From contig JAHDCN010000023.1 of NCBI GenBank assembly GCA_020629815.1, forward strand, positions 1-20,853: a DNA stretch of 20,853 nt, in the 5' to 3' direction. Numbering within the stretch: position 1 is the stretch's first letter; every line of letters starts with the position of its first letter. This document shows positions 1,462 through 18,018 of the stretch, one piece after another. Both the position numbers and the translations under genes were made by a program. A model generated the notes under the pieces. That model saw only the letters and a list, made by a program, of their open reading frames with translations, was not told the DNA's origin and did not search any database. The DNA is from Verrucomicrobiota bacterium. GTDB lineage: Bacteria; Verrucomicrobiota; Verrucomicrobiia; Verrucomicrobiales; DEV007.

Positions 1462-3648
1462 TTAGAATGCGGTGTAACTCACTTTACTGATTTCCTCCAT
1501 AGTTGTGTTGCCAGCAAGAACGTGAGTCAGGCCTTCCTGGTAAAGGGTTTGAAACCCGGTTTTCAGCGCGGCTTTCCGGAGCTCAGATTGCGGAGCCTGC
1601 TCTTCGATAAGATCAGCGATCTCGGAGTTGATTTCGCACATTTCCATGAGTGCCACTCGACCGCTATAGCCAGAGCCCTGACATTCAGGACATCCAGTAG
1701 CCTGATAAACACGCTCATTAGCGTTTTGGGGAATTACTCCCTGGCGTTGGAAAATAGCCTGTAGTTCCGGAGTCCAATCGACTGGCCGCTTGCAATAGGT
1801 GCAAAGTTTTCGGACCAGCCGCTGTGCTTCCGATAAGGCAAGGGAATCTCCAACCAGGTGAGGTTCCACACCCATGGAAAGCAGACGGGAAACTGCACGC
1901 AAGGAATCGTTGGCATGCAATGTGGTCAGAACTAAATGACCCGTGAGAGCTGCATTGATAGCTGAGTTTGCGGTTTCCTCATCACGACACTCACCGATCA
2001 GAATAACATCCGGGTCGGAACGAAGGAGAGCCCGAAGACCGGCACCGAAAGTCAATTCGTGAGTTGGGTCTGTTTGGGTTTGGTTAATCCCTTCGATTTC
2101 GTATTCAATTGGATCCTCAATCGTGTGAATGTTGATGCCTTCTTCATTTACACTGTTGATCAGCGCGTAAAGGGTCGTGGTCTTACCGGATCCAGTAGGT
2201 CCAGTAATCAGAACCAGCCCCTGGTCGCGGCCCATCACCCTTTTCACGAGTGTGTTTTGACGGCGATTGAGATTGAGTTGTGAGAGCTCCTTCAGGCCAT
2301 CCTGCTTATCGAGGAAACGCATGATGATTTTTTGCATCTCATTTCGACAGGGCACAGCGGCAACACGACAGTCAACCCGGCGCTGGCCAATAGCCATAGC
2401 AAAGCGGCCATCGAGCGCTTCCTGACGGGATTGGCTCATATTCGAGTAGTTTTTGATCAGCGCGATGAAACGCTGCATCATATCCTCGGGAGCTGTGTAA
2501 ATTGTCCGGAGCTTGCCGTCGATTCGAGCGCGGAAGCGAACGACGTTGTAAAATTTCTCCAAATGAAGGTCAGACGCCCGGGCATTGATAGCGGTGTAGA
2601 GAACCCATTGAATCAACTCTTCCGGAGTATGATTGAGGTTCTTTGGATTCACTTCCGCGATATCCTCTGGTTCGATCTCTACTAGACTCTCGGAATCGGA
2701 AATACTCAGGGTGGATTTCTCGATTTCGATACCGGCATTGTCAGCTGCACCGGTATTGCAGCGGCTAATAGCGCTTCTGATTACTCTTTCATCAGCGAGA
2801 ACATGAACGAATTCCAAAGGGTCATTTCCCTGTGACAGCCACTCATCTTCAAAAGCATAGTTGCTCTCAGATGCAGAAAGAAGGTATACCTTGTGTTCAC
2901 CAATATATACTGGATACACAGCGTGTTTCTCCATGAGAGGAACCGGGAACTGCTCCTGACGCTGTGCTTCCTCCGGGTTGAAACAAAGGAGTGACGGGCC
3001 CTGGAGAATGTAGGAGAGGGCTACACCAAGTGACGGCTGAATTGAGTTGAATCCGGCAAAATTGACAAAGCCCTCTTTCTCAACGATTTCGCCGTGAAGC
3101 ATTTGCAGTCGCTCTTTTTCTTTATCGTCGAAGGGATAATTTGCCAGCAACCATTCAAAGGCAGCTTCGAAATCGCCGGGTGGCAACTTTGGAGACTGCA
3201 GGGCCTCCATGGGATTGTCTTTTGGGAGAGGGGAATTCGAAAGACGCATTACCAGGTCTTTGCGAATCTTTTCGTATTGCTCTTCGGAAATCACCACACG
3301 AATTGCGAAGGGCGATGGAACACCCCACATATCTTCCGACTTGGGCGCGTGATGGGCAAAAATAATCGATGGTCCGAGGGTTGTGATCGGCAGCCATGGG
3401 CTGTCGGTTCGAGGAAAGCGACCAAGCTTACGAAGAATATTCTCTGCTTCCACTGAACAGTTTTCGCGGGGTAGCTCAACGGGAAGAATGCCGAACTGAA
3501 CAGCGGATCCCTCCAGGGACATCAGCCCTCCGAGGGCGTCGGCGAAGTTCATTGCACTGCCAACCTGGAGTAGGGAACTCATTGGGTCGGCAGCACCTGT
3601 CTCCGCGCTGGATGAAGCGCCGGGAGGCTCTGCGATTGCTTGACTCAT
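1462..3648 (-). CDS. pilB: PilB/GspE-family type IV pilus extension ATPase
   Basis: A 728-residue cytoplasmic hexameric ATPase that drives pilin polymerisation. The C-terminal half is canonical: the N2 domain begins near residue 340 (TPEELIQWVLYTAINARASD), Walker A is GPTGSGKTTT (483-492), the Asp box is IHTIEDPIEYE (507-517), Walker B is DPDVILIGE (545-553), and the His box is TGHLVLTTLHAND (569-581). A tetracysteine zinc site is present as C616-x2-C619 and C653-x2-C656, typical of PilB/GspE and absent from PilT. Residues 1-330 are divergent; 160-296 only loosely resemble a GspE_N domain, and a classical c-di-GMP-binding MshEN motif is not obvious. The gene follows four prepilin genes after an 85-base gap and precedes the REC gene. 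PilT encoded at the other end of the operon supports a pilus rather than T2SS role. Confidence 0.93.
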   Translation of the reverse strand: MSQAIAEPPGASSSAETGAADPMSSLLQVGSAMNFADALGGLMSLEGSAVQFGILPVELPRENCSVEAENILRKLGRFPRTDSPWLPITTLGPSIIFAHHAPKSEDMWGVPSPFAIRVVISEEQYEKIRKDLVMRLSNSPLPKDNPMEALQSPKLPPGDFEAAFEWLLANYPFDDKEKERLQMLHGEIVEKEGFVNFAGFNSIQPSLGVALSYILQGPSLLCFNPEEAQRQEQFPVPLMEKHAVYPVYIGEHKVYLLSASESNYAFEDEWLSQGNDPLEFVHVLADERVIRSAISRCNTGAADNAGIEIEKSTLSISDSESLVEIEPEDIAEVNPKNLNHTPEELIQWVLYTAINARASDLHLEKFYNVVRFRARIDGKLRTIYTAPEDMMQRFIALIKNYSNMSQSRQEALDGRFAMAIGQRRVDCRVAAVPCRNEMQKIIMRFLDKQDGLKELSQLNLNRRQNTLVKRVMGRDQGLVLITGPTGSGKTTTLYALINSVNEEGINIHTIEDPIEYEIEGINQTQTDPTHELTFGAGLRALLRSDPDVILIGECRDEETANSAINAALTGHLVLTTLHANDSLRAVSRLLSMGVEPHLVGDSLALSEAQRLVRKLCTYCKRPVDWTPELQAIFQRQGVIPQNANERVYQATGCPECQGSGYSGRVALMEMCEINSEIADLIEEQAPQSELRKAALKTGFQTLYQEGLTHVLAGNTTMEEISKVSYTAF

Positions 3649-3733: not shown

Positions 3734-4237
3734 TTAGTAGGAAACCGGGAGTGTATAACCCGGCGGAAATGCTCGCGGTGTGCCGAGGTCAGAGCCATCG
3801 AAAACGATCAGCAGGCCGGCCCCGGTATCGTCTGGCCGAAGAAGTTTCCAGGATGATCCGGTCCATTGAGCCCGATAGTCGGTTGTGGCACTGGACGCGG
3901 CCGGGATCCAGTTGGGATTCATGAACGGTCCTTTCGGGATCAGTTCCAGCTCGGCTGTTGCCTGATATTGCAGTGCCATCAGAATAACTTCTTCGTCACT
4001 GGCTGAATTGGGAAGGCCCTGCAAAAATAGATCATTGTTTGCGTGACTGAATTCCCGTGTAGCCTTGTTCAAAGTCGAAATCAGATTCGATGCAACCGTA
4101 TCACGGGAACCTTCGATAACATTTCCGAATGTAGACATTCCAATGGCGGTTAGGATTCCCAGGACCGCAACAGTTACAATGACTTCAACCAAGGAAAATC
4201 CACTATTTCGAGGAGATATACCTATGCTGTTTTTCAT
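3734..4237 (-). CDS. type IV prepilin / pseudopilin-like protein
   Basis: A 167-residue protein with a class III signal peptide: a 13-residue leader ending in Gly, then FSLVEVIVTVAVLGILTAIG, with mature F1 at residue 14 and E5 at residue 18. The hydrophobic helix covers residues 14-36. The rest is a small globular domain with a helical continuation (NLISTLNKATREFSHANN) followed by a Trp-containing beta region and an Asp-rich stretch RPDDTGAGLLIVFDG near the C-terminus. There are no cysteines for a disulfide-bonded D-loop. It is the last of four consecutive small prepilin genes, 21 bases after the previous one. It is a minor pilin or alternative shaft subunit; which of these cannot be decided from sequence alone. 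Confidence 0.85.
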   Translation of the reverse strand: MKNSIGISPRNSGFSLVEVIVTVAVLGILTAIGMSTFGNVIEGSRDTVASNLISTLNKATREFSHANNDLFLQGLPNSASDEEVILMALQYQATAELELIPKGPFMNPNWIPAASSATTDYRAQWTGSSWKLLRPDDTGAGLLIVFDGSDLGTPRAFPPGYTLPVSY

Positions 4238-4258
4238 GGATGGATGCAGAAGAGGATA

Positions 4259-4657
4259 TTAGTAAATAATAGGAACTGGTGTTGCACCGGTCTGATCAGA
4301 AAGAGCAGTCTTGGTCAGAGTTCTCAGGTCAGGTGGCAAAGTCATTGAATAGCCAGCCGGTGTGAACTCGAGGAACGTTGCAGGAGCAAAGGAAATATAA
4401 GGAGATAGCAAAACGTAACGCTCCTGATCATTCGTTGTGGAAGCCCACTCCGTTTCCGCGGCGTCGCGTCCGTTTGTTTGCATGTAGGCAACGATTGCCA
4501 TGTTTACGGACTCCGCGCGGGAGATTGCCAGGTTCCTTTCGGAGTCCCGCTTGATCGCAACAATGTTTGGAATCGCAAGGAAGGCGATGATTCCAATGAT
4601 ACCAACTGCTGCCAGAACCTCTACCAGAGAGAAGGCGGATTTTTTGTGAGATTTCAT
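4259..4657 (-). CDS. type IV prepilin-like protein, Ala at cleavage position -1
   Basis: A 132-residue prepilin with a short eight-residue leader (MKSHKKSA) followed by FSLVEVLAAVGIIGIIAFLA, with E5 at residue 13. The residue before the cleavage site is Ala instead of the usual Gly. The mature part continues as a long helix (AISRAESVNMAIVAYMQTNG) in the GspG/PulG style, then a short globular part ending LSDQTGATPVPIIY. The D-Q-T-G-A string also occurs in the probable major pilin (5197-5595), suggesting a shared C-terminal loop or common ancestry. It has no cysteines. It sits in a run of four prepilin genes with 21-base spacers on both sides and is probably a minor pilin. Confidence 0.86.
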   Translation of the reverse strand: MKSHKKSAFSLVEVLAAVGIIGIIAFLAIPNIVAIKRDSERNLAISRAESVNMAIVAYMQTNGRDAAETEWASTTNDQERYVLLSPYISFAPATFLEFTPAGYSMTLPPDLRTLTKTALSDQTGATPVPIIY

Positions 4658-4678
4658 GTTTTGTCTTGGGATAAAAGG

Positions 4679-5113
4679 TTAAGGGGTGTCAATGAGCTCT
4701 ACTTTGGGATAAGAAGAGGCTGCCCACTGAGGAAGTTGGATCTGCTGACCTACTTTTCGAAGTGCAGTAGTGAGAAGGTCACCGTTGGGAGATGAGTTTG
4801 CGGTAATGTGATCAGCAGTGGAGTCATCGAGATATCCTCTTACCAGATTGAATCGAGCCATGCTGGTTGTTTGCCCATTGTAGGTCTGCTGGGCGGTAGC
4901 TAAGCCACTGACTGCTGATTGAGAGGTCACCCAGGCATTCACAGCATTTTGAATCGAAGCTTGCTGTTGGCGGGCGATTACCCGGCGTGTGTCCTGTGCC
5001 GCGCCGGAGAAAGAGGAAATTACCAGGGCCGACATAATCCCGATCACCGTGATTACGATGAGAAGTTCAACGATCGTAAAGGCCTGGCGCTTTGTGGTGT
5101 GGGAAAGGTTCAT
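4679..5113 (-). CDS. type IV prepilin-like protein, Ala at cleavage position -1
   Basis: A 144-residue prepilin. The leader MNLSHTTKRQA is followed by FTIVELLIVITVIGIMSALV, placing mature F1 at residue 12 and E5 at residue 16; the -1 residue is Ala. The long N-terminal helix continues through DTRRVIARQQQASIQNAVNA and the globular part is rich in Ser, Thr and Gln, ending KVELIDTP. It has no cysteines and lacks the D-Q-T-G-A motif of two neighbours. It is separated from the upstream major-pilin gene by an 83-base spacer that contains a strong stem-loop, so its expression may be lower than that of the major pilin. It is probably a minor pilin. Confidence 0.86.
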   Translation of the reverse strand: MNLSHTTKRQAFTIVELLIVITVIGIMSALVISSFSGAAQDTRRVIARQQQASIQNAVNAWVTSQSAVSGLATAQQTYNGQTTSMARFNLVRGYLDDSTADHITANSSPNGDLLTTALRKVGQQIQLPQWAASSYPKVELIDTP

Positions 5114-5147
5114 AGAGTGAAGGGTAGAAGAGTGTGAAAGGGGAAAG

Positions 5148-5181
5148 GAGAACCAGCCCGCAGTTGTGCGGGCCGGCTCTC
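5148..5181 (-). terminator. strong intra-operon stem-loop after the major pilin gene
   Basis: Two 15-base arms (5148-5162 and 5167-5181) pair without gaps, including two G-T wobbles, around the four-base loop CAAC on the minus strand. The hairpin starts 15 bases after the pilin stop codon. It is followed on the minus strand by a pyrimidine-rich stretch without a run of U, so full intrinsic termination is unlikely. A partial terminator or a 3' mRNA-stabilising structure that favours pilin over the downstream minor pilins is a reasonable inference. Confidence 0.6.
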
Positions 5182-5196
5182 GTAATTAAATCCGGA

Positions 5197-5595
5197 TTAG
5201 TTAGCGGAACCGGTGTACTGCATCATACCGTTAGCGATAGTAAGGTATTGAGCTGCACCAGTTTGGTCGTTAGCAGTAAGACCAGGTACTGAGAATACAG
5301 TTCCGTTGAAAGGGCTGGAAGTGTCAGTGATTTGAACAGCGCCGCCTACAAGATCACCAACGATGTTGGCAACAGCAGTCTCGTCTGTCCAGTTGTCGAA
5401 GCCAGCAGCTTCAGCAGAAGCATAAACAGAAGCAAGGTTCTGTGCATTGCGGCGGTCTTTCGCATCCTGAGCAGAAGCGTTGATGTTACCGATGTTAGGA
5501 ACAGCGATAGCAGCAATGATTCCAATCACAGCGATCACGACAAGCATTTCTACAAGGCTGAAACCAGCTTTGAGGTTGTGTTTCGATACTTTCAT
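5197..5595 (-). CDS. type IV prepilin, probable major pilin
   Basis: A 132-residue prepilin. The ATG at 5595 was chosen because it gives an 11-residue basic leader MKVSKHNLKAG, cleavage after Gly, then FSLVEMLVVIAVIGIIAAIA with E5 at residue 16. The upstream in-frame ATG (5676) would lie over the -10 element of the promoter described below. The helix continues into KDRRNAQNLASVYASAEAAG, a pattern seen in GspG-like pilins, and the globular part ends with DQTGAAQYLTIANGMMQYTG. It has no cysteines. Reasons to call it the major pilin: it has its own strong promoter, an A-rich unstructured leader (5596-5634), a stem-loop directly after the stop, the small size of a shaft subunit, and Gly at -1. 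It would be assembled by PilB on PilC and retracted by PilT. Confidence 0.88.
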   Translation of the reverse strand: MKVSKHNLKAGFSLVEMLVVIAVIGIIAAIAVPNIGNINASAQDAKDRRNAQNLASVYASAEAAGFDNWTDETAVANIVGDLVGGAVQITDTSSPFNGTVFSVPGLTANDQTGAAQYLTIANGMMQYTGSAN

Positions 5596-5674
5596 AGTTG
5601 TTGTTTTTGTTTTTTCTTTGGTTTTGTTTTTTAAAATGAGAACAATGCCCAAGAGGGGTTGGTCCTCAAAATAC

Positions 5675-5703
5675 AATATAATTAATAATTACTATAATTG
5701 CAA
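5675..5703 (-). promoter_or_regulatory. sigma70-like promoter of the major pilin gene
   Basis: On the minus strand, TTGCAA (5698-5703) and TATATT (5675-5680) are separated by exactly 17 bases within a very AT-rich stretch. The predicted start point near 5668 gives a leader of about 70 bases ahead of the ATG at 5595. The second half of the leader is almost only A and C. This 169-base gap (5596-5764) is the longest inside the operon, which supports an internal promoter. Confidence 0.6.
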
Positions 5704-5764: not shown

Positions 5765-6991
5765 TTATTTCTTCTTCAGAAGGGCATCTCCGAGTGAGAA
5801 GACGGGAGCGTAGATTGCGTAGATCAGAAATCCGACCATGGTTCCCAGGATAATAATCGTGAAGGGCTCGATCAGCTTGTCGATTTGGTTGGCAGCCGTA
5901 TCCAGTTCGTCTTCGTAATCTTCTGCAATTTCATTGAGCAGCTCAGTTCCTGAACCAGTCTCGGCAGCGACTTCCATGAAGCCGCAGATCATTCGACCGT
6001 CGTCACCCAGGAGGTGTGACTCGATCAGGAAGGCATCAGGCAGGGTCGTTCCTCCCAGAATGTGATCCCGGACACGGTTAAAGAACTCCTTGTATTGAAA
6101 GTGCCATGCTGTCTCAGCGGTAATTTCCAATGCAGTAGAAAGGCGAACATTCGCTTCGATTAGAAGAGCCAGAGTACGAAATCCAACAGCTGCTGCTGAT
6201 TTCCGAACCAGGTTGGAAATAATAGGCAGCTTAAGGAACAGCTGTTGAACCGGTCTCATCCGTGAAATTTTTCCCCAGTTTTTAAAGAAAAGGATAATCG
6301 CCAGTACTGGGATAGCTACCAACCACGGCTGCTTGAGCAGCACGTTGGAAAAAGTCATCATCATTTTCGTAGCAGCCGGAAGCTCGGTATCCAGTGATGT
6401 ATAGAGCTTTGTCATCGCTGGAACGAGAGTGAAGCTCATGGTAATCACAACGCCGATACCGAGTGTGATCACGACTCCGGGATAGATCATTCCGGATTTC
6501 AGCTTCTTGAGAATCCGTGATGTTTTCTTTTGGCTTGATCCGACCCGGCGGAAGATCTCGGGAAGGCGGCCCGACTCTTCGCCCGCGCGAATCAATGCGA
6601 TGAGATCCGGAGTGAAAAGGGTGTGATGCTTTTTCATCGCATCACTCATTTTTTCGCCCTGCTGCAGGTCCTCAGCAACTTCAGCGATCACGCCCCGGAA
6701 TTTCGAAGTCTTCACCCGGTTTGCCTGGAGCTTGAAACTCTTGATGATTGGAATATTTCGATCCAGGCACTTTGCCAATCCGTTGAAAAGAGCAACGCGA
6801 TCTTCGAGAGGCTTCTTCTTAGATGTGAGCCTTTGAATCGATTCGTCCAGACCGGTAATGTCACTGACTTTCGCGTTTTCTACCGGTGTTTTACCAGCGC
6901 CAACAAGAGCTTTCTCATCGGTAGTGGTGTCAACAACAGTATGTGTCTTCCGGTTTGTGTGGATATTGGTTAGGGTAACTTTCTTAAGCAT
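5765..6991 (-). CDS. pilC: PilC/GspF-family inner-membrane platform protein
   Basis: A 408-residue inner-membrane protein that links the ATPase to the growing pilus base. Two T2SSF-type helical domains are visible: the first at about residues 62-185 (LEDRVALFNGLAKCLDRNIP to IRAGEESGRLPEIFRR) and the second at about 265-385 (FRTLALLIEANVRLSTALEI to FMEVAAETGSGTELLNEIAE). Transmembrane segments are at about 168-190, 222-238 and 373-398. The size matches PilC/GspF proteins of about 400 residues. The first 60 residues are polar and weakly conserved. The gene lies between the PilV-like minor pilin (26-base spacer) and the major pilin promoter region. Confidence 0.93.
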   Translation of the reverse strand: MLKKVTLTNIHTNRKTHTVVDTTTDEKALVGAGKTPVENAKVSDITGLDESIQRLTSKKKPLEDRVALFNGLAKCLDRNIPIIKSFKLQANRVKTSKFRGVIAEVAEDLQQGEKMSDAMKKHHTLFTPDLIALIRAGEESGRLPEIFRRVGSSQKKTSRILKKLKSGMIYPGVVITLGIGVVITMSFTLVPAMTKLYTSLDTELPAATKMMMTFSNVLLKQPWLVAIPVLAIILFFKNWGKISRMRPVQQLFLKLPIISNLVRKSAAAVGFRTLALLIEANVRLSTALEITAETAWHFQYKEFFNRVRDHILGGTTLPDAFLIESHLLGDDGRMICGFMEVAAETGSGTELLNEIAEDYEDELDTAANQIDKLIEPFTIIILGTMVGFLIYAIYAPVFSLGDALLKKK

Positions 6992-7435: not shown

Positions 7436-9250
7436 TCAGTTTCCAAGCGGGACACGGAATGCTTCCAGCCAAGAGTGGCGAATCAAGAACGGGGCGAGAT
7501 CTTCCAGGTTGTCCTCCTGAGTCAGCTTCAGGTAGCGGGTGGTGTTCGTATTGGAAACATGAATACTGTTATCCGTCCGAATACCGCCTTTGATCGTCAG
7601 CACGCCTTGAACATTGGAAAGGTTCCAATCTGCAATCGTGCCTTGAAGTTCACAGATCATACGCCACGAAGGTGAGGAAATTGTTGTTCCATCCAACTCG
7701 GAAAACTGGAAAACTGTCCGCGCATTGGGCGAGGTTACCGGAATGCCGGCTTCATCGATAATGCCGGCATTGTCGAGAACGTTCTTGTTGGCTATTGCCA
7801 GTACAATTCGACGGTCATTAAAGCCCTGAAAATTGATCTGCTGGAGCTTTACGTTCAGGTCATTGTTCAGAACAATGAGTCTTGGCTCTAGGTTTTCATC
7901 ATCCTCAGCTGAAGAGCTGGTTGGGTGCCCCTTGATTGTCAGTGACGTGAAGTTCGTAAGGAGAAGGTTCGGCAGAAGCGGATCACGAAGATCCAGGGTG
8001 AAGTCACCTGCACCGTTCGAGATCAGATAGGTTCCAAGGCCGGCGTTATAGATTTCCTGAGTCCCATCCGGAAAGGTGTTTTCATATGCTTCGCTATTCA
8101 GAAGTGAGTTAACGTCATCGGCCAGAGGCAAGTTGGCGTTTGTTACGTTCAGGAGATTAACCAAAGATAATGCAGGCGTGCGGTTGAGTAATGCCGTCAT
8201 TACATCCGAAGAAAGAGGCGATGCATCGATTAATGTCTGCTCAAGAACGGTATCTGAAATGTTCGTATCATTAATATCGGTGATTAATGATCCATCGGCA
8301 GGTGATGCAGCAATCGTGTCTGGACCACTGCCAAGAGCCTTGGGGACTGCCCCTTGATAGGCATAGACAGTTGCGTTGATGGATGCGTAGTCGCCAATGT
8401 TGGCAAGGCGGTGCGCATATGAGTTCTGCTGCTCGACACCGCCACCCAGAGATGAAGGAACCGAAGAAACGAGCGTTGCGTAGCCTTGCAGGTGAAGGTC
8501 CGCCGGAATGGGAGTGGCGCTGCCTGCCAAAGACGTATTGACCGTGCCTGTGGAGGTTGGGCTGACGGGAAAGTTCTGTGGGGCAAGCGGAGTGCCGCCT
8601 GCAGGGTGACTCAATGTCATTCCTGAAACAGAAAGTTCAGGAAAATAGAATTCCTCCGCTTTGATGGCACTCAGGTTGTTTTGCACTGAGGTCGGCCAAA
8701 GAACAGCTCGACCGTGAACATGCACTTCCCCGGTTACTGTCGGAGCTTCTCCACTGCTGAAAACCGCATCAATCGAGTTATGTATAGTCAGCAGGTCACC
8801 ATAGGCCATGGGGTTGGCACTTTTCAGTTGGTAATTCCAATTGAAAGCGGTATCGCCATCACTAACTGAAACCGCCAATTCTTCCGAGAAAGCCCGGAAA
8901 GGTTGACTGCCGATTTTTTGCGTTCGTGTTGCAGCGGTTTCGACCAATGGATTTGTACTCGCACCGAGCTGAGCGAATCCCATGTCGTTTGCTAAGGTGA
9001 CAGACCGGGCGTTGTCCGCCCCAATAAGGCGGCGTCGGAAAGCCATGTCTTTTGCAACGATCTTACTGTTTCGATAACGAACCAGTCTTTCCGTAGCGAC
9101 AATGCCTTGCTCAGCAACGTGGCCACGGGCGTCCAAAAGGGAAACCCAGGCTGCAACACCGATCGTTCCGAGACCGGCGAGGACGAGGCAAACTACAAGT
9201 ATACTACCTCTGGAGTTTTGAAGTTTGGAAAATTTCTTGGAGAGTTTCAT
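7436..9250 (-). CDS. PilX-like minor pilin component with an unusually large passenger domain
   Basis: A 604-residue protein starting from the ATG at 9250, 21 bases after the PilW-like gene; an ATG at 9265 would overlap that gene. The N-terminus RGSILVVCLVLAGLGTIGVAAW (residues 14-36) matches PilX-type proteins, in which a basic Arg-Gly precedes a hydrophobic helix without Glu at position 5. The remaining 560 residues are rich in Ser, Thr, Asn and Leu, with many short beta-strand stretches such as GEVHVHGRAVLWP and, late in the protein, LTIKG and LNVKLQQINFQGF, suggesting an elongated beta fold. Typical PilX proteins are about 200 residues. The length and position between PilW-like and PilV-like proteins suggest a tip-complex or adhesive role. 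No known enzyme motif is visible. Confidence 0.72.
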   Translation of the reverse strand: MKLSKKFSKLQNSRGSILVVCLVLAGLGTIGVAAWVSLLDARGHVAEQGIVATERLVRYRNSKIVAKDMAFRRRLIGADNARSVTLANDMGFAQLGASTNPLVETAATRTQKIGSQPFRAFSEELAVSVSDGDTAFNWNYQLKSANPMAYGDLLTIHNSIDAVFSSGEAPTVTGEVHVHGRAVLWPTSVQNNLSAIKAEEFYFPELSVSGMTLSHPAGGTPLAPQNFPVSPTSTGTVNTSLAGSATPIPADLHLQGYATLVSSVPSSLGGGVEQQNSYAHRLANIGDYASINATVYAYQGAVPKALGSGPDTIAASPADGSLITDINDTNISDTVLEQTLIDASPLSSDVMTALLNRTPALSLVNLLNVTNANLPLADDVNSLLNSEAYENTFPDGTQEIYNAGLGTYLISNGAGDFTLDLRDPLLPNLLLTNFTSLTIKGHPTSSSAEDDENLEPRLIVLNNDLNVKLQQINFQGFNDRRIVLAIANKNVLDNAGIIDEAGIPVTSPNARTVFQFSELDGTTISSPSWRMICELQGTIADWNLSNVQGVLTIKGGIRTDNSIHVSNTNTTRYLKLTQEDNLEDLAPFLIRHSWLEAFRVPLGN

Positions 9251-9271
9251 GTTGGTGTGGGTCAAAGGGGG

Positions 9272-10210
9272 CTACAAAGCAGGGAACATGGGTAGAGCCA
9301 ACATCAGGCTCGATTTCATACTTTGTTGAGAGTAGGCAAAAACGGCTGGTGCAGTAACCGGGGCCAGGCCGGGATCCAGAATCGGCAGGGGATTGATCGT
9401 TGGATCTGGCAGCCACAGAAGGTAGAAAGGTCCTTTTGTCCCAATTTTAAAACGTTCGATACTGTTGGTCTCGGTGACTCCCTTTCTGTTCACATGTTCG
9501 AACGCGACGAATTGTGGGCCCGGCAGGTTGTTTGTTCCGAGAATTCCCTCATAGAAAACGTCGTAGTACTGGGTCAGGGTATTATTCTTGTAGCGCCTCA
9601 CTGATGCATAGAGCCCCTGCGGTGTTGTGGTAGTGACGAAATCAATATCGTAAACCGCATGCAAAGACATCAGAGTGTCACTGCTATTCGGCGCGACCAT
9701 AAACACCGTCATGTTCATCGTCGTATTGGGTGGGACATTCCTGATCGCTGTGGAAAAAACCGAAGCAGCAGCCGGGACCTGTTGAATCAGAAACTGACGA
9801 AACGCTTCCGGTGTATCCAGAGCGGGTTTCGTTGAGGTATCACTACTACCGGGGCCAAACGGAATTGTGCCCTGACGAACCGGATTGAACTGAGAGCGCG
9901 GGAGGCAGTAGACGGCGCTGGACATTTCAGCATCGTCCTGCATTTGCTGCCTCATAACCTGAGCAAACCCGAGCTTTCCGTAGTTGGGAGCAGTATAGAC
10001 CCTTCGTGATGTAGCATTCTCCCCATAGAAATCGGCGTTAGCAGAACCTATGGTGACCGTTGTCAGGTTGGTTAGTCGCTTGGAATTCTGGGAAATGCTA
10101 TAGAAGACCATTGTCGCGGCGCCGAGAAAGATCGCGCTCATCGAAATGGCAACCAGCATTTCAACAAAAGTCCAGGCTCCTACCTGGGTATGTTTCGTAG
10201 TGTGTTTCAT
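9272..10210 (-). CDS. PilW/GspJ-like minor prepilin with Trp at mature position 1
   Basis: A 312-residue prepilin-like protein. The leader MKHTTKHTQVGA is followed by WTFVEMLVAISMSAIFLGAA, with Ala at -1, Trp at +1 and E5 at residue 17. The helix is followed by a long, mostly beta C-terminal domain with many Asn, Thr and Pro residues, ending in a Leu/Met-rich segment SSLMLALPMFPAL. The size is close to PilW-type proteins. It lies 29 bases after the PilP-like gene and 21 bases before the PilX-like gene. Trp at the mature N-terminus is unusual for this family. Processing by the prepilin peptidase is assumed rather than shown. Confidence 0.8.
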   Translation of the reverse strand: MKHTTKHTQVGAWTFVEMLVAISMSAIFLGAATMVFYSISQNSKRLTNLTTVTIGSANADFYGENATSRRVYTAPNYGKLGFAQVMRQQMQDDAEMSSAVYCLPRSQFNPVRQGTIPFGPGSSDTSTKPALDTPEAFRQFLIQQVPAAASVFSTAIRNVPPNTTMNMTVFMVAPNSSDTLMSLHAVYDIDFVTTTTPQGLYASVRRYKNNTLTQYYDVFYEGILGTNNLPGPQFVAFEHVNRKGVTETNSIERFKIGTKGPFYLLWLPDPTINPLPILDPGLAPVTAPAVFAYSQQSMKSSLMLALPMFPAL

Positions 10211-10914: not shown

Positions 10915-11487
10915 TTACTTGGTGGCCTTTGGTTTGGGCTGTGCAGTCGGGATACTTCGGACGATCGGCACCTGAATCTGCATTTCGAGATGAACATCAT
11001 TCCCGCGATCGCCGCGGGTGATTTTGCAGTGAGCAATTTGGCAGGCAGGAATCTGCTCCTCCAGCTTGCCCAGCCAGTTCATCACTTTCGAATACTCGTC
11101 TTCGACAATCAGATCGGCTCGAAGTGAGTGACTGATGAATCCGTTGCCCTCGATCTTGGAGGCTTTGAATTTCTGTGAAAGAACGAAAACGTCACCTTCG
11201 CGAATTACTTCGGCAATACGTTGTTCGCCGTCGCCTGTGTTACGAAATGATTCGAAGTGAGGGAGCCACTGGTCGTAACTGTCCCGCAATTGGGACGTTT
11301 TTGCTGACAGACTCTGAAGTTGAATTTCAGCAAACTTGCGCTGGCGCTCTGCTGTTTCAGCCTCTGTTCTGGCGGTTTCACCATCCTGTTTGGCTTTGAC
11401 AGCGATACCACGCACTTTATTCACTCCGAATCCCATCAGAAAGACGATCAGTCCGATGACGAGGCATGCTAATTTATGGTTACTCAT
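10915..11487 (-). CDS. PilO-like inner-membrane alignment protein
   Basis: A 190-residue bitopic membrane protein with a short cytoplasmic tail (MSNHK), one transmembrane helix (about residues 5-23), a predicted coiled coil (about 25-70, rich in Glu, Ala, Gln and Arg) and a small alpha/beta domain (about 85-178) with alternating strands such as SLRADLIVEDEY and VHLEMQIQVPIV. This architecture is that of PilO/GspM. It follows the PilN-like gene by 21 bases. This spacer is the only short one in the operon that is not strongly G-poor (4 of 21), but it still lacks a Shine-Dalgarno core. The C-terminal tail is Pro/Lys-rich. The family assignment is by architecture and order, not by clear sequence identity. 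Confidence 0.66.
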   Translation of the reverse strand: MSNHKLACLVIGLIVFLMGFGVNKVRGIAVKAKQDGETARTEAETAERQRKFAEIQLQSLSAKTSQLRDSYDQWLPHFESFRNTGDGEQRIAEVIREGDVFVLSQKFKASKIEGNGFISHSLRADLIVEDEYSKVMNWLGKLEEQIPACQIAHCKITRGDRGNDVHLEMQIQVPIVRSIPTAQPKPKATK

Positions 11488-11508
11488 TTTCTCTGATAAT
11501 CTTATTAC

Positions 11509-12060
11509 CTAGTTCTTTTCGTTGTAGATAAGGGTAGCCTGAAAATCGATGGCATTCTTTCCCTTTACTTCCTGAGCGGAGTAGGTTTGGTAGTTTAGAG
11601 CGTAGATAGAATCTAAGGTGGCCTGCACTTGCTGGCTGCCGCCGCCATTTACCTTCAATTCCATAAAAGTATGTGCTGGTATTTCCGGGTTACGATTGAG
11701 AGACAGTTCGGCAATCGTTGAGTTCTTAGCCATACTTCGGGCAATCGCCACGGTGATTGGCTGCAAAGGACGTGACCCTTCAAGCCATTGTGCGAGCTGG
11801 TTTGCACGAGTGGAGATTTCTCGAATCTTTAGATCCTGTTGCTGGATGCGCTGGGTTTCCCCCGTAGCATTAGTTGCGCGGTTCTTCATTACTTCAGCAG
11901 ATGACTTGTAGGCCTTGAATGAGAAGTAAAAATAGAGGCTCAGTAGAATTGAAAGAACCGTTCCGATATAAAAAGCGATCGGAACCAGCTTCAAGATTGA
12001 CGGAAGACCGCCGGAAACATTCTGCCGGTCGTTCTTCAGATCATGTATAATGATTTCCAT
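11509..12060 (-). CDS. PilN-like inner-membrane alignment protein
   Basis: A 183-residue bitopic membrane protein: cytoplasmic tail 1-25 (MEIIIHDLKNDRQ...), transmembrane helix at about 26-48, coiled coil at about 49-92 and a periplasmic alpha/beta domain at about 97-183 ending in the strand IDFQATLIYNEK. This is the layout of PilN/GspL C-terminal regions. In classical systems the PilN tail carries an I-N-L-L-P motif that docks into PilM; that motif is absent here, although the short strand EIIIHDL could play the same role with the PilM-like protein encoded just upstream. Spacing is 24 bases from the PilM-like gene and 21 bases to the PilO-like gene. Confidence 0.66.
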   Translation of the reverse strand: MEIIIHDLKNDRQNVSGGLPSILKLVPIAFYIGTVLSILLSLYFYFSFKAYKSSAEVMKNRATNATGETQRIQQQDLKIREISTRANQLAQWLEGSRPLQPITVAIARSMAKNSTIAELSLNRNPEIPAHTFMELKVNGGGSQQVQATLDSIYALNYQTYSAQEVKGKNAIDFQATLIYNEKN

Positions 12061-12084: not shown

Positions 12085-12951
12085 TTAGTTTTTAGCGAGA
12101 ATATTCCAGAGGTTATTGTCCTCCGTCACATCGGTTACGTGGAGACTTCCAAACATGGAAAGGATGGCTTTACCGTGTGGAGATTGAGCTGTGTCACCCA
12201 TGAAGAGAACTCTTGTAGTTGGCTCGGCTCCCTCAATGAAAGGGCGAACCATCATTGCCAGGGCTGCCTCGTCGTCGATGGGTAAACCGCTACGGCAGCG
12301 CAGCTCTTTCCATTGGCCTGCCTTCTGTTTCAGAACGCAGAGAGAACCGTGTGACCAGGTGATTACGATTAGATCCTGATTCTTGAATGAGTCATCGTGT
12401 GAGATTCGATTCAGCAAGTGAGAAGTCATGCCAAACAACCCAACGCAGATTCGAGCGGCAGTCAGATTGTGAGCCTTCAGTTCCTCTTCGATCTGCTTGA
12501 TCATTGAGTCATCGCAGGCCATCAGCAGACTGGCACTGGTTTCCAGATTGTGGTGCATCGCGTATCGCTTGCTTCGATCGTACTTGGTGCCAAGGATTGC
12601 CTTGGGACTGATACGAATCTCGTCTTCCCATCCTTTCTTTCGGGAAAGGTTATGCTCGAGATTGATGATGAAGCGATTGTTCAGCGAAACTTGAACCCAG
12701 CCGTCTTCGGTATTGTTCTTCCAGTCATCACCCATTTGGGAAATGATGGTAGGAAACTCACCCTCTGCTTCGTCGACCTGGGAAACATTTCCCTTTTTGT
12801 CGAGGTATGCCCATGAGCAGTGGCCTTTGTTGATGTTAATGATCACAGACTTTCTTTTCGGAAAACGCTGCGGCCATGAGAAGTTCGGATTGTCTGCCTC
12901 CGGACGAAACGCAGCGAACGAGAGCACTTCTTTGATGTCTTTGAATTCCAT
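12085..12951 (-). CDS. PilM-like cytoplasmic protein, highly divergent
   Basis: A 288-residue soluble protein without signal peptide or membrane segment, encoded directly before PilN- and PilO-like proteins, where the actin-like ATPase PilM is expected. The segment KSVIININKGHCSWAYLDKKGNV (34-56) resembles the first strand-turn-strand of the ASKHA fold, DLIVITWSHGSLCVLKQKAG (193-212) resembles the second phosphate-binding hairpin, and RVLFMGDTAQ (247-256) resembles the adenosine-side strand. However, the usual Asp and Gly residues of the phosphate loops are largely missing, and the protein is shorter than PilM (about 350 residues). It may be a degenerate PilM that no longer hydrolyses ATP. 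Confidence is high that it is a real gene and moderate for the PilM relationship. Confidence 0.6.
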   Translation of the reverse strand: MEFKDIKEVLSFAAFRPEADNPNFSWPQRFPKRKSVIININKGHCSWAYLDKKGNVSQVDEAEGEFPTIISQMGDDWKNNTEDGWVQVSLNNRFIINLEHNLSRKKGWEDEIRISPKAILGTKYDRSKRYAMHHNLETSASLLMACDDSMIKQIEEELKAHNLTAARICVGLFGMTSHLLNRISHDDSFKNQDLIVITWSHGSLCVLKQKAGQWKELRCRSGLPIDDEAALAMMVRPFIEGAEPTTRVLFMGDTAQSPHGKAILSMFGSLHVTDVTEDNNLWNILAKN

Positions 12952-12972: not shown

Positions 12973-14055
12973 TTATTGCGTTGCGGTGACTGTTTGATTA
13001 GCAGCAGGTTGAATGACTTGTTGTTTATGCAGATACTCTGCTACTTCGTATTCGGAGTAGCCGGTTTGTGTTTCCTTGGAGGGAGTGAAACCTTCAATCT
13101 GACGAGCACGAATACTGTGCTCGAAATTCATCATGCCCTTGCTGGTGCCGGTCTCGAGCTCATGGTCGAGACGCTTAAAGTCACCACGGCGAATCATCCC
13201 GGTTACGGAATCGTAGGGGAACATGATCTCGTGAATCGGGAATCGGCGCTTCTTCTTCTCATCGAATAGAAGTTGCTGACAGAGAATCATCTTCATCGAG
13301 TCGGCGAAAGAAAGCATGGCGTTCTCCAGCCGTTCACTGGGAACCATCTTCAAATATCGTTGCACAGTTTGTGCAGCAGAGGATGTGTGCATGGTTGCGA
13401 TGACAACGTGACCGGTTTCTGCAGCCTGAAGGGCGATCTCGGCTGTTTCGCCATCCCGAATCTCACCAACCATGATCACATCAGGTGCCTGACGCAAAGA
13501 TGCCCGGAGTGACTGTCCAAAATCTAACTCATCCGAACCCATCTCCCGTTGCGTGATAAGGGAGGCTAAGTTGGTTGGGAGAATATATTCGATCGGATCC
13601 TCAAATGTAATGATGTGCTCACGCCGCCGTTCTGCCCGCGCCTTAATCATGGAGGCAATGGTGGTAGATTTACCCGATCCGGTAGCACCACAGACGAGAA
13701 ACAAGCCGTTTTCGGCCTCAAGATAGGCCTTGAGAGCCTGCATTGGCAGATTGATTTGATTTGGATCAGGGATCTGGTTAGGGAGTAGACGCATCACCCA
13801 GCGAAGTCGTCCCCGGGTTACCAGTTTGTTGACACGGAAGCGGAGTCGGCCCAGCTGATGGGCGTAATCTTCACAACCTGGTTTTACCTCCAGCGCTGCT
13901 TCGGGTCGATAGACAAAGGAGTCAATGATCATGTCTCCATTGTGCCGATAAACCAATTGCTCAAAGGGGGTGATGTAAAAGTCACTGATATTGAACTCAT
14001 GCGCGAGATGCATGATTCGATTTCCAAGCGCGTGTCTTTCGTTAAGGTCTTGCAT
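12973..14055 (-). CDS. pilT: PilT-family type IV pilus retraction ATPase
   Basis: A 360-residue cytoplasmic ATPase that powers pilus retraction. The start at the ATG at 14055 avoids the 92-base overlap with the upstream prepilin gene that the longer frame (14172) would need. Numbered from that start: Walker A GATGSGKST (123-131), Asp box IITFEDPIEY (148-157), Walker B DVIMVGEIRD (192-201) and His box TGHVVIATMHTSS (214-226). The tetracysteine motif of PilB is absent, and the length fits PilT. The C-terminal A-I-R-N-L-I-R-E retraction motif corresponds to SVTGMIRR, so it is only partly conserved. The first 90 residues form a shortened PAS-like domain. The last 30 residues are extra relative to many PilT proteins. 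Confidence 0.92.
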   Translation of the reverse strand: MQDLNERHALGNRIMHLAHEFNISDFYITPFEQLVYRHNGDMIIDSFVYRPEAALEVKPGCEDYAHQLGRLRFRVNKLVTRGRLRWVMRLLPNQIPDPNQINLPMQALKAYLEAENGLFLVCGATGSGKSTTIASMIKARAERRREHIITFEDPIEYILPTNLASLITQREMGSDELDFGQSLRASLRQAPDVIMVGEIRDGETAEIALQAAETGHVVIATMHTSSAAQTVQRYLKMVPSERLENAMLSFADSMKMILCQQLLFDEKKKRRFPIHEIMFPYDSVTGMIRRGDFKRLDHELETGTSKGMMNFEHSIRARQIEGFTPSKETQTGYSEYEVAEYLHKQQVIQPAANQTVTATQ

Positions 14056-14080: not shown

Positions 14081-15646
14081 TTAGTTGGATGCAGGAGTGA
14101 TGGTCGCGGAAATCTCTGCGGTGGAGGAATTCCCCTCGTAAACATGAAATTGGTTCGAACTGGAAAAACCAAAGCTGTCTGTTGCCTCTACGCTTAGGTT
14201 CACGTCGTATTGAACTCCGCCGATTGTAATAGAGTGAGGCTCTCCAATATTTAGCAGGCGAACATAGTCAGCACTTGCAACCGGGTCGGTCGGATCGTTT
14301 GGCGTATTGACTAAATCCAAAGCAATATCGATTTGCAGGGGCTCTGTTTGACCCGAAAACTGAAGCTGTAGGTTTAGGGAAACAGATGACGCATGTGAGT
14401 TGTAGTAACTGTTTCCGTTGTAATAAGTTAAGTTGGCGATAGGGAAGGCTGTATCCGGAGGGACGTCTTGAAATGGAAGCGAGGAGACGCTCATTTCGTT
14501 AGGCAGACCTACGGCAACGGGAGGGTCACCGTTTCCGGGATCGAACTCATTGCTGCCATGAGTGAAATTCTGATTTGAATTCGTTAGTTCAAAATCAAGG
14601 TTCTCACCGCCGCTCGGGGAGTGAAACGCAGATTGAGAGGAGCCACTAACTCCAGTGACGATAGGGTAGTAAATTGCGGTAGCGATATCACTGTCCTGGA
14701 ATTCTTCGGGATCGACTGCTACAAACCGGGCCTCGATTGAATCGGAATTGCCGGGCACCCGGATTTGGTCAGCGTACAATGTCCACGATCTTCCCGTGCG
14801 AATGTAAGCTGTGCCGTTTGTAGAAGGAGGCAGATTGACGATGGTTACTGTCAGAGGAAAGCTGGTTTCCGGATAGTTGCCCGGAGGAGGGGAGAACTGG
14901 GGCGTGGCTAATTGAGGGATAACTGGATCGGGAGTGGAATCGTCATCATCTGATCCACCGCTGCCACCGCCATCACCTCCGCGGGGTCCTCCTTTGTCAT
15001 CATCAGTGGTGTCTGTCGGTATAGCTCCGGTATCGGGTGCGTTGGAGATAGTCGCTACGTCCGCACCCAGGTGTGTCACCGGTACCTCGGATGTGGTATG
15101 ATCCCAGACCCAATTAGATTCCGAGGCATAAGATACGGCCCCAGGTGAACGATCCTCAAGACCAGTGAAGCTCTCATTCAGATTTTCATCCAGATCGAAA
15201 GTGAATCCTGTTCCCTCGGAGCGAATTCGGAATTTTCGCTGATTTGAGTCGTAGAATGCGCGCTTGTCATCGCTACCTGATGAAACAGGTAGCATAACGA
15301 TCCTGATATCGATTAACCGACCCGATGGAGCGCCCGTGTGAAGTGCTTTGTCTGCGCGGCTGCGGGAGCTCTTCAGTTTGTTTAGGACAATCTGCGGTTC
15401 GGTAACACTCTGGAGACTACCTCCATTCGCTTGATAGAGCTTAATCGCCCGGTTCAGCGTGGCGACGTCGTTCTGGAGCTTACCGTCCTTGGCAGAACTC
15501 ACCATTCGGCCTACCGCGATGATGCTTATAGAGGAAAGGATCGCAATGACGATCAGCGCACAGAGAAACTCCATCAGGGTAAACCCCCGAGGGGAACCCT
15601 GAGTAAGCCCGCGAAATGTCGCGTTTATGGGAAATCTCTCCTTCAA
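14081..15646 (-). CDS. adhesin-like prepilin: pilin helix, CHB_HEX-like domain and choice-of-anchor K-like domain
   Basis: A 521-residue first gene of the operon. A prepilin N-terminus is clear: the leader ends in Gly21, then FTLMEFLCALIVIAILSSIS with E5 at residue 26. A pseudopilin-like helix follows to about residue 80, then an Asp/Gly/Thr-rich linker (203-240). Residues 244-328 (ATPQFSPPPGNYPETSFPLT onward) resemble the chitobiase C-terminal-like CHB_HEX domain. Residues 334-517 fit the choice-of-anchor K pattern: NLDFELTNSNQNFTHGSNEF, then IANLTYYNGNSYYNSHASSV, then NTPNDPTDPVASADYV. Such domains normally sit on surface proteins with other anchors. The frame opens with TTG at 15646 and no in-frame ATG precedes the signal, so the exact start is uncertain; an AAGGAG overlaps the first codons. 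A pilus-tip adhesin is the best guess. Confidence 0.82.
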   Translation of the reverse strand: MKERFPINATFRGLTQGSPRGFTLMEFLCALIVIAILSSISIIAVGRMVSSAKDGKLQNDVATLNRAIKLYQANGGSLQSVTEPQIVLNKLKSSRSRADKALHTGAPSGRLIDIRIVMLPVSSGSDDKRAFYDSNQRKFRIRSEGTGFTFDLDENLNESFTGLEDRSPGAVSYASESNWVWDHTTSEVPVTHLGADVATISNAPDTGAIPTDTTDDDKGGPRGGDGGGSGGSDDDDSTPDPVIPQLATPQFSPPPGNYPETSFPLTVTIVNLPPSTNGTAYIRTGRSWTLYADQIRVPGNSDSIEARFVAVDPEEFQDSDIATAIYYPIVTGVSGSSQSAFHSPSGGENLDFELTNSNQNFTHGSNEFDPGNGDPPVAVGLPNEMSVSSLPFQDVPPDTAFPIANLTYYNGNSYYNSHASSVSLNLQLQFSGQTEPLQIDIALDLVNTPNDPTDPVASADYVRLLNIGEPHSITIGGVQYDVNLSVEATDSFGFSSSNQFHVYEGNSSTAEISATITPASN

Positions 15647-15764: not shown

Positions 15765-15789
15765 AATTATGAATATTGTTATTAAACTA

Positions 15790-18018
15790 ATGAAAAAACT
15801 ACTTCTTGTTTCATTACTTGCGTTGGGAACAGCGTTTTCGACAACTGGCCATGCACAAATGGGCCAGATTTCGTTGCGCGGCTCTTACGCTTACGAGACG
15901 GCCGCGAGACCTCTTCGCGGGGCAGCTCCACGTCAGTACAACTTCTCGAAAGCAGTACTGTCAGATATTATGCGCCTTATGGCGGAAGATGCCGGAATTG
16001 GCTTCTTCGGTTTGCCGGAGACGGCCAACAGCCAGGATCGCGTAGTCACCTTCACAATCAATGCCAGTCCCTTTGCGGCTCTGGAGACACTTGCGAAGGC
16101 TAATGGAATCTCCCTCATCTATGATTCGGGGATTTGGTACCTTCGTCCTGCTAACGACGGCGAATTGATTGGTCGGATCTATCAGATCAACTACAATGCC
16201 CAAGAGTTGGTAAGAAAGAATGGCAGCTCTGCTGATCTTGGTTCATCGCAGGGAAGCGGGCAGTCAGGCGCCGGTGGTGGTGGTCTGAGTCTACAGGGAT
16301 CTCCTGATTTCTTTATCACTGAGCCCAGTAAGCTTCTGGAAGATATTCGGGGGATCATCGATATCCCGACTACCGGATCAATTGCGACGATCGCACCTAC
16401 TGCATCTGTGAATAACGGGCAGTTCTCTCTGAGCAACTTCCAGGGCCAGCCGACATTGGGGCAGCCCAATATTCCTCAAGCTAACGTAGGAGGCACCGTT
16501 GGAGTAGCGCAGAGCGCAGGTTCTCAGGCAGCGGGAAATGGTTCCAAGGTAATTTGGAACAGTGACTCCAATTCGCTGTATGTCGTGGCAACACGCCAAC
16601 AGCACTTGTGGATCGAAGCCTACCTGGCATCCGCAGATAAGCCGCAACCAATGGTGGCGATTGAGGTGAAATTCCTCGAAATGAGCAAGGATCCATCATC
16701 CGAGATCGGCGTCGATTGGACCGGTGTTCTTGGAGAAGACGGATTGGGCGCCACCCTTTCTAACGCCAGTGGCCCAATCAATTTGGCTAACATTGGCAGC
16801 TACTCGCTTCCGACTGCAGTTTTGAGTTACAACGACTTGAACCTGACACTGAGATCTTTGTATCAGGACCGTCGTACCAAGTCTGTTTCCTATCCACGGA
16901 TGGTTACTCTGGACAACCGCGAAGTTTCATTCCGCAGCGTTGTGAATCAGCCAGTGCTTGGCTCCAGTGCCAGCACCAGCCTTGGGGCGGGTGCGACTCA
17001 GACCTCTTCGGTTGAATACATTCCTATCGGCACCGTGATCAACATTCTGCCGAAAATCATGGCAGACTGCAAAGTGCTGCTGAACGTGTCCGTTACCGTA
17101 TCGGATATTATTGGAACAGAATTTATTAACGGGAACCCGTTCCCGATTGCGACCTCCCGCGTTTACACCGCGCCGCTTACTGTAGCCAGTGGTTACACAG
17201 TAGCGATCAGTGGTCTCGATGCGGCTCGCACTGAGAATAACGAGCGTGGCGTTCCGGTTCTGGGCAAACTGCCCCTGGTCGGTGGTGCGTTCAAAACCCG
17301 CAACAAAGACCGCAGCCGCCAGCACCTGATGATGCTGATTACTCCGGTGGTGATCAACTCTCACTGCACCGGTGTGCCAAAAGCCCCGATGTCTCGCGAC
17401 CCGAATGTTTCCTATCCGATCCATGCCAGTGCCAAGGCACAGATTTGTAATACTGGATGCGACAGCAAGATGCCACCGCTGCCACCGCAAAATCCTGAGC
17501 GCCCACGCACTCAGCATATTCCCGAGCCCCAGTTCACGAATGCTGGCAGCATGAAAAAGTCCAACCAGACTTTTGGCAGCAAGCCCGAGCCAGCAGTTGT
17601 GGCCCGTCCTCTGCCTGAAGCGAAAGTGGAAGACAAAGGTCTCGGTGCCAGTGGTAATGTAGCGGAAGCTGTCTCCAGCGATCCGGCACCAGCTGCAGCA
17701 CCAGCACCGCCTGCAGCTCCGGAGAATGATGCCAAACTTTCAGACATCAAAGACCAACTGGACTCCTTGCAAGGTAAACTGAAAGCGCTCCCGGCCGGAG
17801 ATGCCAAGTTAACCTCTGAGCAGGGGAAAACTGCGAAAGCGATCTACGACGAAAGTCGCACGCTATTGACTGAGATTGACGGTATGCGTGCCGATAGCAG
17901 TAAGCCTCTCCAGGGTGAACTCGGTGATGTCTGGTGGAGTATCATCCAGCTGAAAACCGATGCAGGAAAATTCGAGGAACGTCTGCCTGACGGGCTCGCA
18001 ATTAACTTTGACGAATAA
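15790..18018 (+). CDS. pilQ: PilQ-type outer-membrane secretin with extended C-terminal tail
   Basis: A 742-residue protein; the ATG at 15790 is preferred because the promoter -10 box ends five bases before the other ATG (15769). The signal peptide MKKLLLVSLLALGTAFSTTGHA is cleaved after A22. A secretin/TonB N-terminal (STN/N0) domain spans about residues 49-121, a Gly/Ser-rich linker about 147-168, and an N1/NHN-like domain about 175-285 interrupted by a Gln/Gly-rich insertion. The secretin core at about 287-522 shows VAIEVKFLEM at its start, VSYPRMVTLDN, and the family signature VPVLGKLPLVGGAFK, ending MLITPVVI. A tail of about 220 residues follows: three Cys (525, 553, 557), a Pro/Ala-rich stretch (558-645) and a helical, coiled-coil-like end (about 647-742). 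It is the pore through which the pilus exits, and is divergent from the pilus operon. Confidence 0.92.
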   Translation: MKKLLLVSLLALGTAFSTTGHAQMGQISLRGSYAYETAARPLRGAAPRQYNFSKAVLSDIMRLMAEDAGIGFFGLPETANSQDRVVTFTINASPFAALETLAKANGISLIYDSGIWYLRPANDGELIGRIYQINYNAQELVRKNGSSADLGSSQGSGQSGAGGGGLSLQGSPDFFITEPSKLLEDIRGIIDIPTTGSIATIAPTASVNNGQFSLSNFQGQPTLGQPNIPQANVGGTVGVAQSAGSQAAGNGSKVIWNSDSNSLYVVATRQQHLWIEAYLASADKPQPMVAIEVKFLEMSKDPSSEIGVDWTGVLGEDGLGATLSNASGPINLANIGSYSLPTAVLSYNDLNLTLRSLYQDRRTKSVSYPRMVTLDNREVSFRSVVNQPVLGSSASTSLGAGATQTSSVEYIPIGTVINILPKIMADCKVLLNVSVTVSDIIGTEFINGNPFPIATSRVYTAPLTVASGYTVAISGLDAARTENNERGVPVLGKLPLVGGAFKTRNKDRSRQHLMMLITPVVINSHCTGVPKAPMSRDPNVSYPIHASAKAQICNTGCDSKMPPLPPQNPERPRTQHIPEPQFTNAGSMKKSNQTFGSKPEPAVVARPLPEAKVEDKGLGASGNVAEAVSSDPAPAAAPAPPAAPENDAKLSDIKDQLDSLQGKLKALPAGDAKLTSEQGKTAKAIYDESRTLLTEIDGMRADSSKPLQGELGDVWWSIIQLKTDAGKFEERLPDGLAINFDE

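Follow-up and report, generated by a model that had tools for sequence, protein, structure and literature searches.

More than 1,200 modular pilins with 264 architectures have been described (PMC8179133, cited here from excerpts, as are the other articles below). PilB and PilC of Streptococcus sanguinis each have a small pilin module, followed by a linker and a large functional domain at the C-terminus (PMC8179133). A peptide-binding domain (PBD) has been studied in the 1.5-MDa ice-binding RTX adhesin of Marinomonas primoryensis (MpIBP/MpAFP); it attaches to proteins by their last three residues, with affinities that span a 1,000-fold range (PMC10865825), binds the C-terminal tripeptide -Tyr-Thr-Asp best, and helps to bind diatoms (PMC12077191). 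In this study, we analyzed a stretch of 20,853 nucleotides (the window; assembly GCA_020629815.1, contig JAHDCN010000023.1) from an uncultured Verrucomicrobiota bacterium. A gene on its reverse strand (14081..15646, TTG start) encodes a protein of 521 amino acids, which its open reading frame, profile matches, ortholog alignment and structure model identify as a modular prepilin with a choice-of-anchor K head (K domain) of PBD type. We consider it reasonably probable that this protein is an accessory modular minor pilin, probably placed at the pilus tip, whose head grips protein C-termini rather than glycans. As a modular pilin it is ordinary in principle; what is new is its head and how thoroughly the clade uses it.

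Unlike S. sanguinis PilB and PilC, the window protein carries a PBD-type K domain on an immunoglobulin-like (Ig-like) stalk, has a long disordered linker and belongs to a diderm operon. PilB has a VWA domain (PMC8179133); likewise, a paralog in the genome of the window (L002:1426-3612, contig C308) combines the same prepilin head and stalk with a C-terminal VWA domain. The Marinomonas PBD (5k8g, 6x5v, 6x5w, 6x6q) has the same fold as the window K domain and detectable sequence homology to it, but resides in an RTX adhesin, whereas the K domain is fused to a prepilin and its ligand is a prediction. The PBD of Vibrio cholerae FrhA (9ybq, 9y9w) likewise belongs to an RTX adhesin, which has a different anchor, and is very distant in sequence. 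The same K domain occurs in other Verrucomicrobiota proteins (L047, L050, L051, L054 and others) with a PEP-CTERM-like tail in place of the prepilin N-terminus. The PilY1/PilC tip adhesins of diderm type IV pili are alike in proposed place and role, although PilY1 itself is no pilin; a PilY1 profile (PF05567) matched none of the 74 genomes of the window's GTDB family (f1), but control genomes were equally without a match.

One article mentions K domains in the RTX-like adhesins that clam symbionts carry, which agrees with a link to the PBD (PMC11171427). The excerpts of PMC8179133, its 264-architecture Dataset S1 excluded, do not name the K domain among modular pilins. A literature search, with most PBD papers outside its reach, returned no pilin with a K or PBD-type domain, and the excerpts of PMC13090378, PMC9611117 and PMC7616799 hold nothing on pilins with a PBD. 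The nearest case is Acidithiobacillus PilW, for which threading with 5K8G as one of six templates gave a low-confidence model (TM-score 0.42 +/- 0.14; PMC6322766); the excerpts of that article make no PBD claim for PilW. Where these proteins are named in the sources, the name reflects K or pseudopilin PulG but not both, which may explain why the fusion was overlooked.

Domain architecture and the link to peptide-binding domains

Profile matches, alignment and the structure model together show a prepilin signal, a predicted pilin fold, a flexible linker, an Ig-like stalk and, at the C-terminus, a domain with homology to PBDs. The prepilin leader (residues 1-21, 15584..15646; all parts lie on the reverse strand) ends in Gly21 and is followed by the pilin N-terminal helix (residues 22-73, 15428..15583), in which E26 corresponds to E5 of the mature pilin; the model places the helix at residues 24-73. 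The pilin head (residues 74-170, 15137..15427) is modelled with four strands between residues 116 and 152. The prepilin N-terminus of the original prediction was borne out: N_methyl (PF07963) matched residues 20-40 (E 1.6e-4) with 21.5 bits, narrowly above its gathering score of 21.2, and the prepilin signal model TIGR02532 matched at E 2.8e-6. In the alignment of 15 sequences, E26 is kept in all, and position -1 holds G in 12 sequences and A in three, which is the class III signal of type IV prepilins (G/A at -1, E at +5). The generic signal models miss some orthologs, N_methyl being found in 9/15 (E <= 0.1) and TIGR02532 in 5/15 (E <= 0.001). The long N-terminal helix and small beta sheet of type IV prepilins are found in the model and in sequence matches to pilins in PDB, where the family profile retrieves type IV pilins at E 9e-10.

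The linker (residues 171-240, 14927..15136) is rich in Asp and Gly, as had been noted from the sequence, and also in Pro, and its predicted local distance difference test score (pLDDT) is below 50 across residues 171-234. The stalk domain (residues 241-330, 14657..14926) is supported by alignment and model, residues 243-330 being modelled confidently as a separate Ig-like domain. Residues 244-328 had been called CHB_HEX-like; the domain boundary held, but the family name did not. No CHB_HEX match was found in Pfam up to E 10 with the whole window protein or its middle segment alone, none of the 15 orthologs matched at E <= 0.1, and one of ten middle segments matched at E 0.06, below the cut-off, so that CHB_HEX_C_1 (PF13290) was rejected for this segment. 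Instead, 3 of the 15 orthologs matched the OmpL47-type model NF047446 (best E 3.2e-7). CHB_HEX_C_1 does score above its cut-off in relatives with other modules (L088, L089, L094, L178, L179), and in the three relatives compared its match falls in a domain later than the stalk match. The stalk domain is duplicated in relatives L023, L025 and L026. Prepilin frames of 2133-2238 residues (L100:2574-9287, L101:1694-8338 and L102:3-6401, the last cut by the end of its stretch) carry 12, 14 and 20 recognised stalk copies, respectively, after the same head.

The C-terminal domain (residues 331-521, 14084..14656) was assigned from NF038131 and from PBD comparisons. NF038131 (choice_anch_K) matched residues 334-512 over positions 1-168 of its 169, far above chance (E 2.3e-23), with 82.9 bits against a curated cut-off of 30, and it is found in all 15 orthologs, the window protein included. 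The profile searches thus upheld the K segment of the original prediction and not CHB_HEX, and the predicted structure shows the pilin helix, the Ig-like domain and a K domain of PBD fold. Through NF038131 the protein has an extra C-terminal domain that is not pilus-specific, which makes it a modular pilin in the sense of Raynaud 2021.

With a profile built from 75 K domains (pilins contributed 69, other proteins 6), the Marinomonas PBD (E 1.5e-10) and the FrhA PBD (E 6.5e-10) were retrieved from the PDB sequences, and nothing else before chance level (0.56). Alignment of profiles with the PBD fragment (hhalign) gave a probability of 95.8, and NF038131 scores the Marinomonas fragment itself at 82.3 bits. 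The homology covers most of the domain, and G364, N410, N450, D460 and E504 are near-invariant in K domains and identical in both PBDs. By superposition, the PBD entries were the sole clear structural match among those aligned. Peptide binding is therefore a strong homology-based prediction, and the earlier suggestion of glycan binding gives way to peptide ligands as the better guess, the K domain being homologous to a domain that recognises protein C-termini.

Several observations weigh against this reading. The 18 K domains found upstream of pilT find no PBD at E <= 10 when used alone, so the PBD link depends on the wide family, and direct BLASTP of the window K domain with the PBD fragment fails (E 4.7). 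Superposition with the PBD shows 14-15% sequence identity, and the specificity of the PBD is for this reason not transferable to the window K domain. The PBD fragment also matches a second NCBIfam model, PEP_CTERM_THxN, with a score of 74.4, below the cut-off of 85. Host-specific adhesins do not usually have a head as strongly conserved as this one, and expression from the TTG start is assumed.

Conservation, the slot upstream of pilT and K-domain anchors

Matches at E <= 1e-8 were found in 59 of the 74 f1 genomes, and 14 full-length relatives align to the window protein with 31-43% identity. Among the best 19 loci beside its own (L009-L027), a secretin gene or pilT adjoins the gene in 18 and both do in 13; the sole exception, L024, is a paralog. 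The same fusion lies next to pilT in five genomes of a second GTDB family of the order (f3). The search in related genomes suggested by the original prediction thus recovered the fusion, and two families share both the fusion and its gene order (divergent secretin, prepilin-K, pilT). Across a sample of 288 genomes from the phylum, the whole-protein profile gave full-length matches only in f1 and f3 (E <= 1e-20; for each genome listed, five candidates were scored). The named loci are metagenome-assembled genomes of Verrucomicrobiota, most labelled Verrucomicrobiales and two Akkermansiaceae. In a quick tree of K domains, the f1 and f3 members from the position upstream of pilT form one group (SH-aLRT support 98). 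A single origin of pilin-borne K domains is not rejected by the approximately unbiased test (p-AU 0.478), which does not demonstrate it. Many forks of the head tree are weak, and for this reason no claim is made on the order of module swaps.

The gene pilT is present in 49 of the 74 f1 genomes (E <= 1e-100). The slot upstream of it holds a K-prepilin in 20 of these, several cut by contig ends. In 11 it holds a beta-propeller protein (nine complete with the prepilin head, two with only the propeller end on the contig), and in another 11 it is empty, with only the divergent secretin, whose match lies 136-423 nucleotides from the pilT match. The remaining genomes are unclear (one, G065), have no recognisable secretin or prepilin (three), or reach a contig end (three). 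In some genera of the family the slot proteins are giant prepilins of 1288-1346 residues (L086, L088-L095); scans of three of the nine complete ones showed DUF5122/delta-60 propellers (E <= 6.1e-93 for DUF5122), the others being assigned to this type by similarity. The slot gene of G028 (L072:1235-2263) encodes 343 residues with the head and a shortened K domain that NF038131 misses. Elsewhere, VWA domains were detected in 12 of 20 scanned non-K paralogs, a selection rather than a census (19 of the 20 loci of one list, L185 omitted, and one from L098).

Within f1, NF038131 marks 84 places in 38 of the 74 genomes, and 69 of these K domains share one frame with a prepilin head, as judged with a profile of the head derived from the alignment of 15 orthologs. 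Another eight have lost their upstream part at the end of a stretch or contig. By inspection, five of the other seven look frame-broken or partial, and two (G064:C109, G063:C359) seem genuinely headless. A VPEP-type tail was found at none of the 84 places. The number of K-prepilins per genome reaches five (G063). In 58 non-slot stretches of about 3-20 kb (L106-L135 excluded), a search for five pilus machinery genes had no match at E <= 1e-5. In G066:C289 (L098, L099), eight head-bearing long prepilin frames lie within about 26 kb, three with K, an arrangement resembling tandem expansion. In a sample of 387 genomes of the phylum, K domains occur at 20 places in 15 genomes, including the window's own. 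Inspection of the other 19 revealed 10 PEP-CTERM-like tails, 5 prepilin heads and 4 with neither, two of which carry another tail resembling a sorting signal. The interchangeable anchors ascribed to the K family are thus evident in this phylum, and the pilus as the likely anchor of the window K domain is supported.

The pilus operon around the gene

The prepilin-K gene is the first on its strand in the cluster, as previously stated, and its product, described as about four times the size of the shaft pilins, is 3.1 to 3.9 times the length of the pilins of 132-167 residues encoded there. The next gene, 25 nucleotides downstream, encodes a PilT-like retraction ATPase (12973..14055; PF00437 E 4e-47), and on the forward strand the divergent neighbor encodes a secretin (15769..18018; PF00263 E 4.6e-31). 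The secretin domain stops near residue 529 of 749, and the remainder is rich in Pro and Ala and probably forms a coiled extension. The genes that follow, like that of the PilT-like ATPase, lie on the reverse strand. A PilM-like gene (12085..12951), conserved as a neighbor in relatives, and two genes in the PilN and PilO positions (10915..12060) have no Pfam match; we have named the former from its position and the latter from order and size. Two more putative large pilin-like minor subunits of 312 and 609 residues (7436..10210) are also without a Pfam match. The 609-residue product (7436-9265), in the pilin part of the cluster, is perhaps a PilX/GspK-like minor subunit; it had no NCBIfam match at E <= 1 and no Pfam match at E <= 0.01. 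Further genes encode a PilC/GspF-like platform protein (5765..6991, profile match), four small prepilins of 132-167 residues that are likely shaft or minor pilins (3734..5676, TIGR02532 matches), and a PilB-like assembly ATPase (1462..3648; PF00437 E 6.4e-104).

Proposed function and alternatives

The database entry P0002 (497 residues) begins at Met25, inside the pilin helix, which clips the prepilin leader and hides the signal, and no clear Shine-Dalgarno sequence was seen upstream of the TTG. That the frame truly begins at Met25 and the protein is not a prepilin is nevertheless highly improbable, because each of the 14 aligned orthologs has an upstream ATG and a leader whose last residue, ahead of the conserved motif, is G or A; the match of the family profile to type IV pilins in PDB also speaks against it. 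The TTG immediately precedes the AAGGAGAG stretch, so the true start is perhaps slightly downstream; any start close to the TTG retains Gly21 and Glu26.

For the prepilin itself, it is unlikely that the head binds a glycan, a surface polymer or another ligand that is not a C-terminus, with the PBD fold re-used. The low identity to the PBD and the diversity of K domains, down to 17% identity to the window K domain, are compatible with such a change, and S. sanguinis PilC bears a lectin module (PMC8179133). On the other hand, the most invariant residues are shared with both peptide-binding PBDs, PBD entries are the only clear structural match among those aligned, and Pfam and NCBIfam scans found no carbohydrate-binding family in the window protein. 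Less likely again is a structural or assembly role, in which the protein, as a large minor pilin, would initiate or cap the pilus and its head would bind another pilin or a periplasmic partner. The position of the gene at the head of the operon beside pilT fits this role, the head is more conserved than the pilin part, as expected for an internal partner, and the C-terminus of another pilin might serve as the ligand. Against it stand the slots that are empty or taken by a beta-propeller protein (11 of 49 each) and the 30 K-prepilins in stretches without a pilus machinery gene.

We thus favor an accessory adhesin over a part of the assembly core, since some relatives with the secretin and pilT lack the gene at this locus. 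Prepilin peptidase would cleave after Gly21, and the pilin helix would pack into the type IV pilus that this operon encodes. A place at the tip or close to it is probable, because the C-terminal part would be too bulky to fit within the shaft without clashes. Calcium takes part in the function of the Marinomonas PBD. With Ca2+ participating, the head would hold a protein of another cell or surface by its exposed C-terminal end, and PilT-driven retraction would then draw the partner in. The tip position and the binding of a ligand are both inferred; the pili of this operon may be built to grab proteins.

A clade-wide role is proposed tentatively. It is possible, if doubtful, that in this clade the type IV pilus is the standard anchor of an extracellular peptide-reading domain, that a repertoire of prepilins with PBD-type heads recognises the protein C-termini of neighbors, and that the slot, by swapping a peptide-binding head, a beta-propeller or no head, provides exchangeable tips for partner recognition. 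The choice-of-anchor K family, named only for its changeable anchor, gains a concrete candidate function, since an experimentally studied PBD falls in the same model (NF038131), and the pilus is added to the list of its anchors. Tip recognition by type IV pili becomes directly testable with short peptides.
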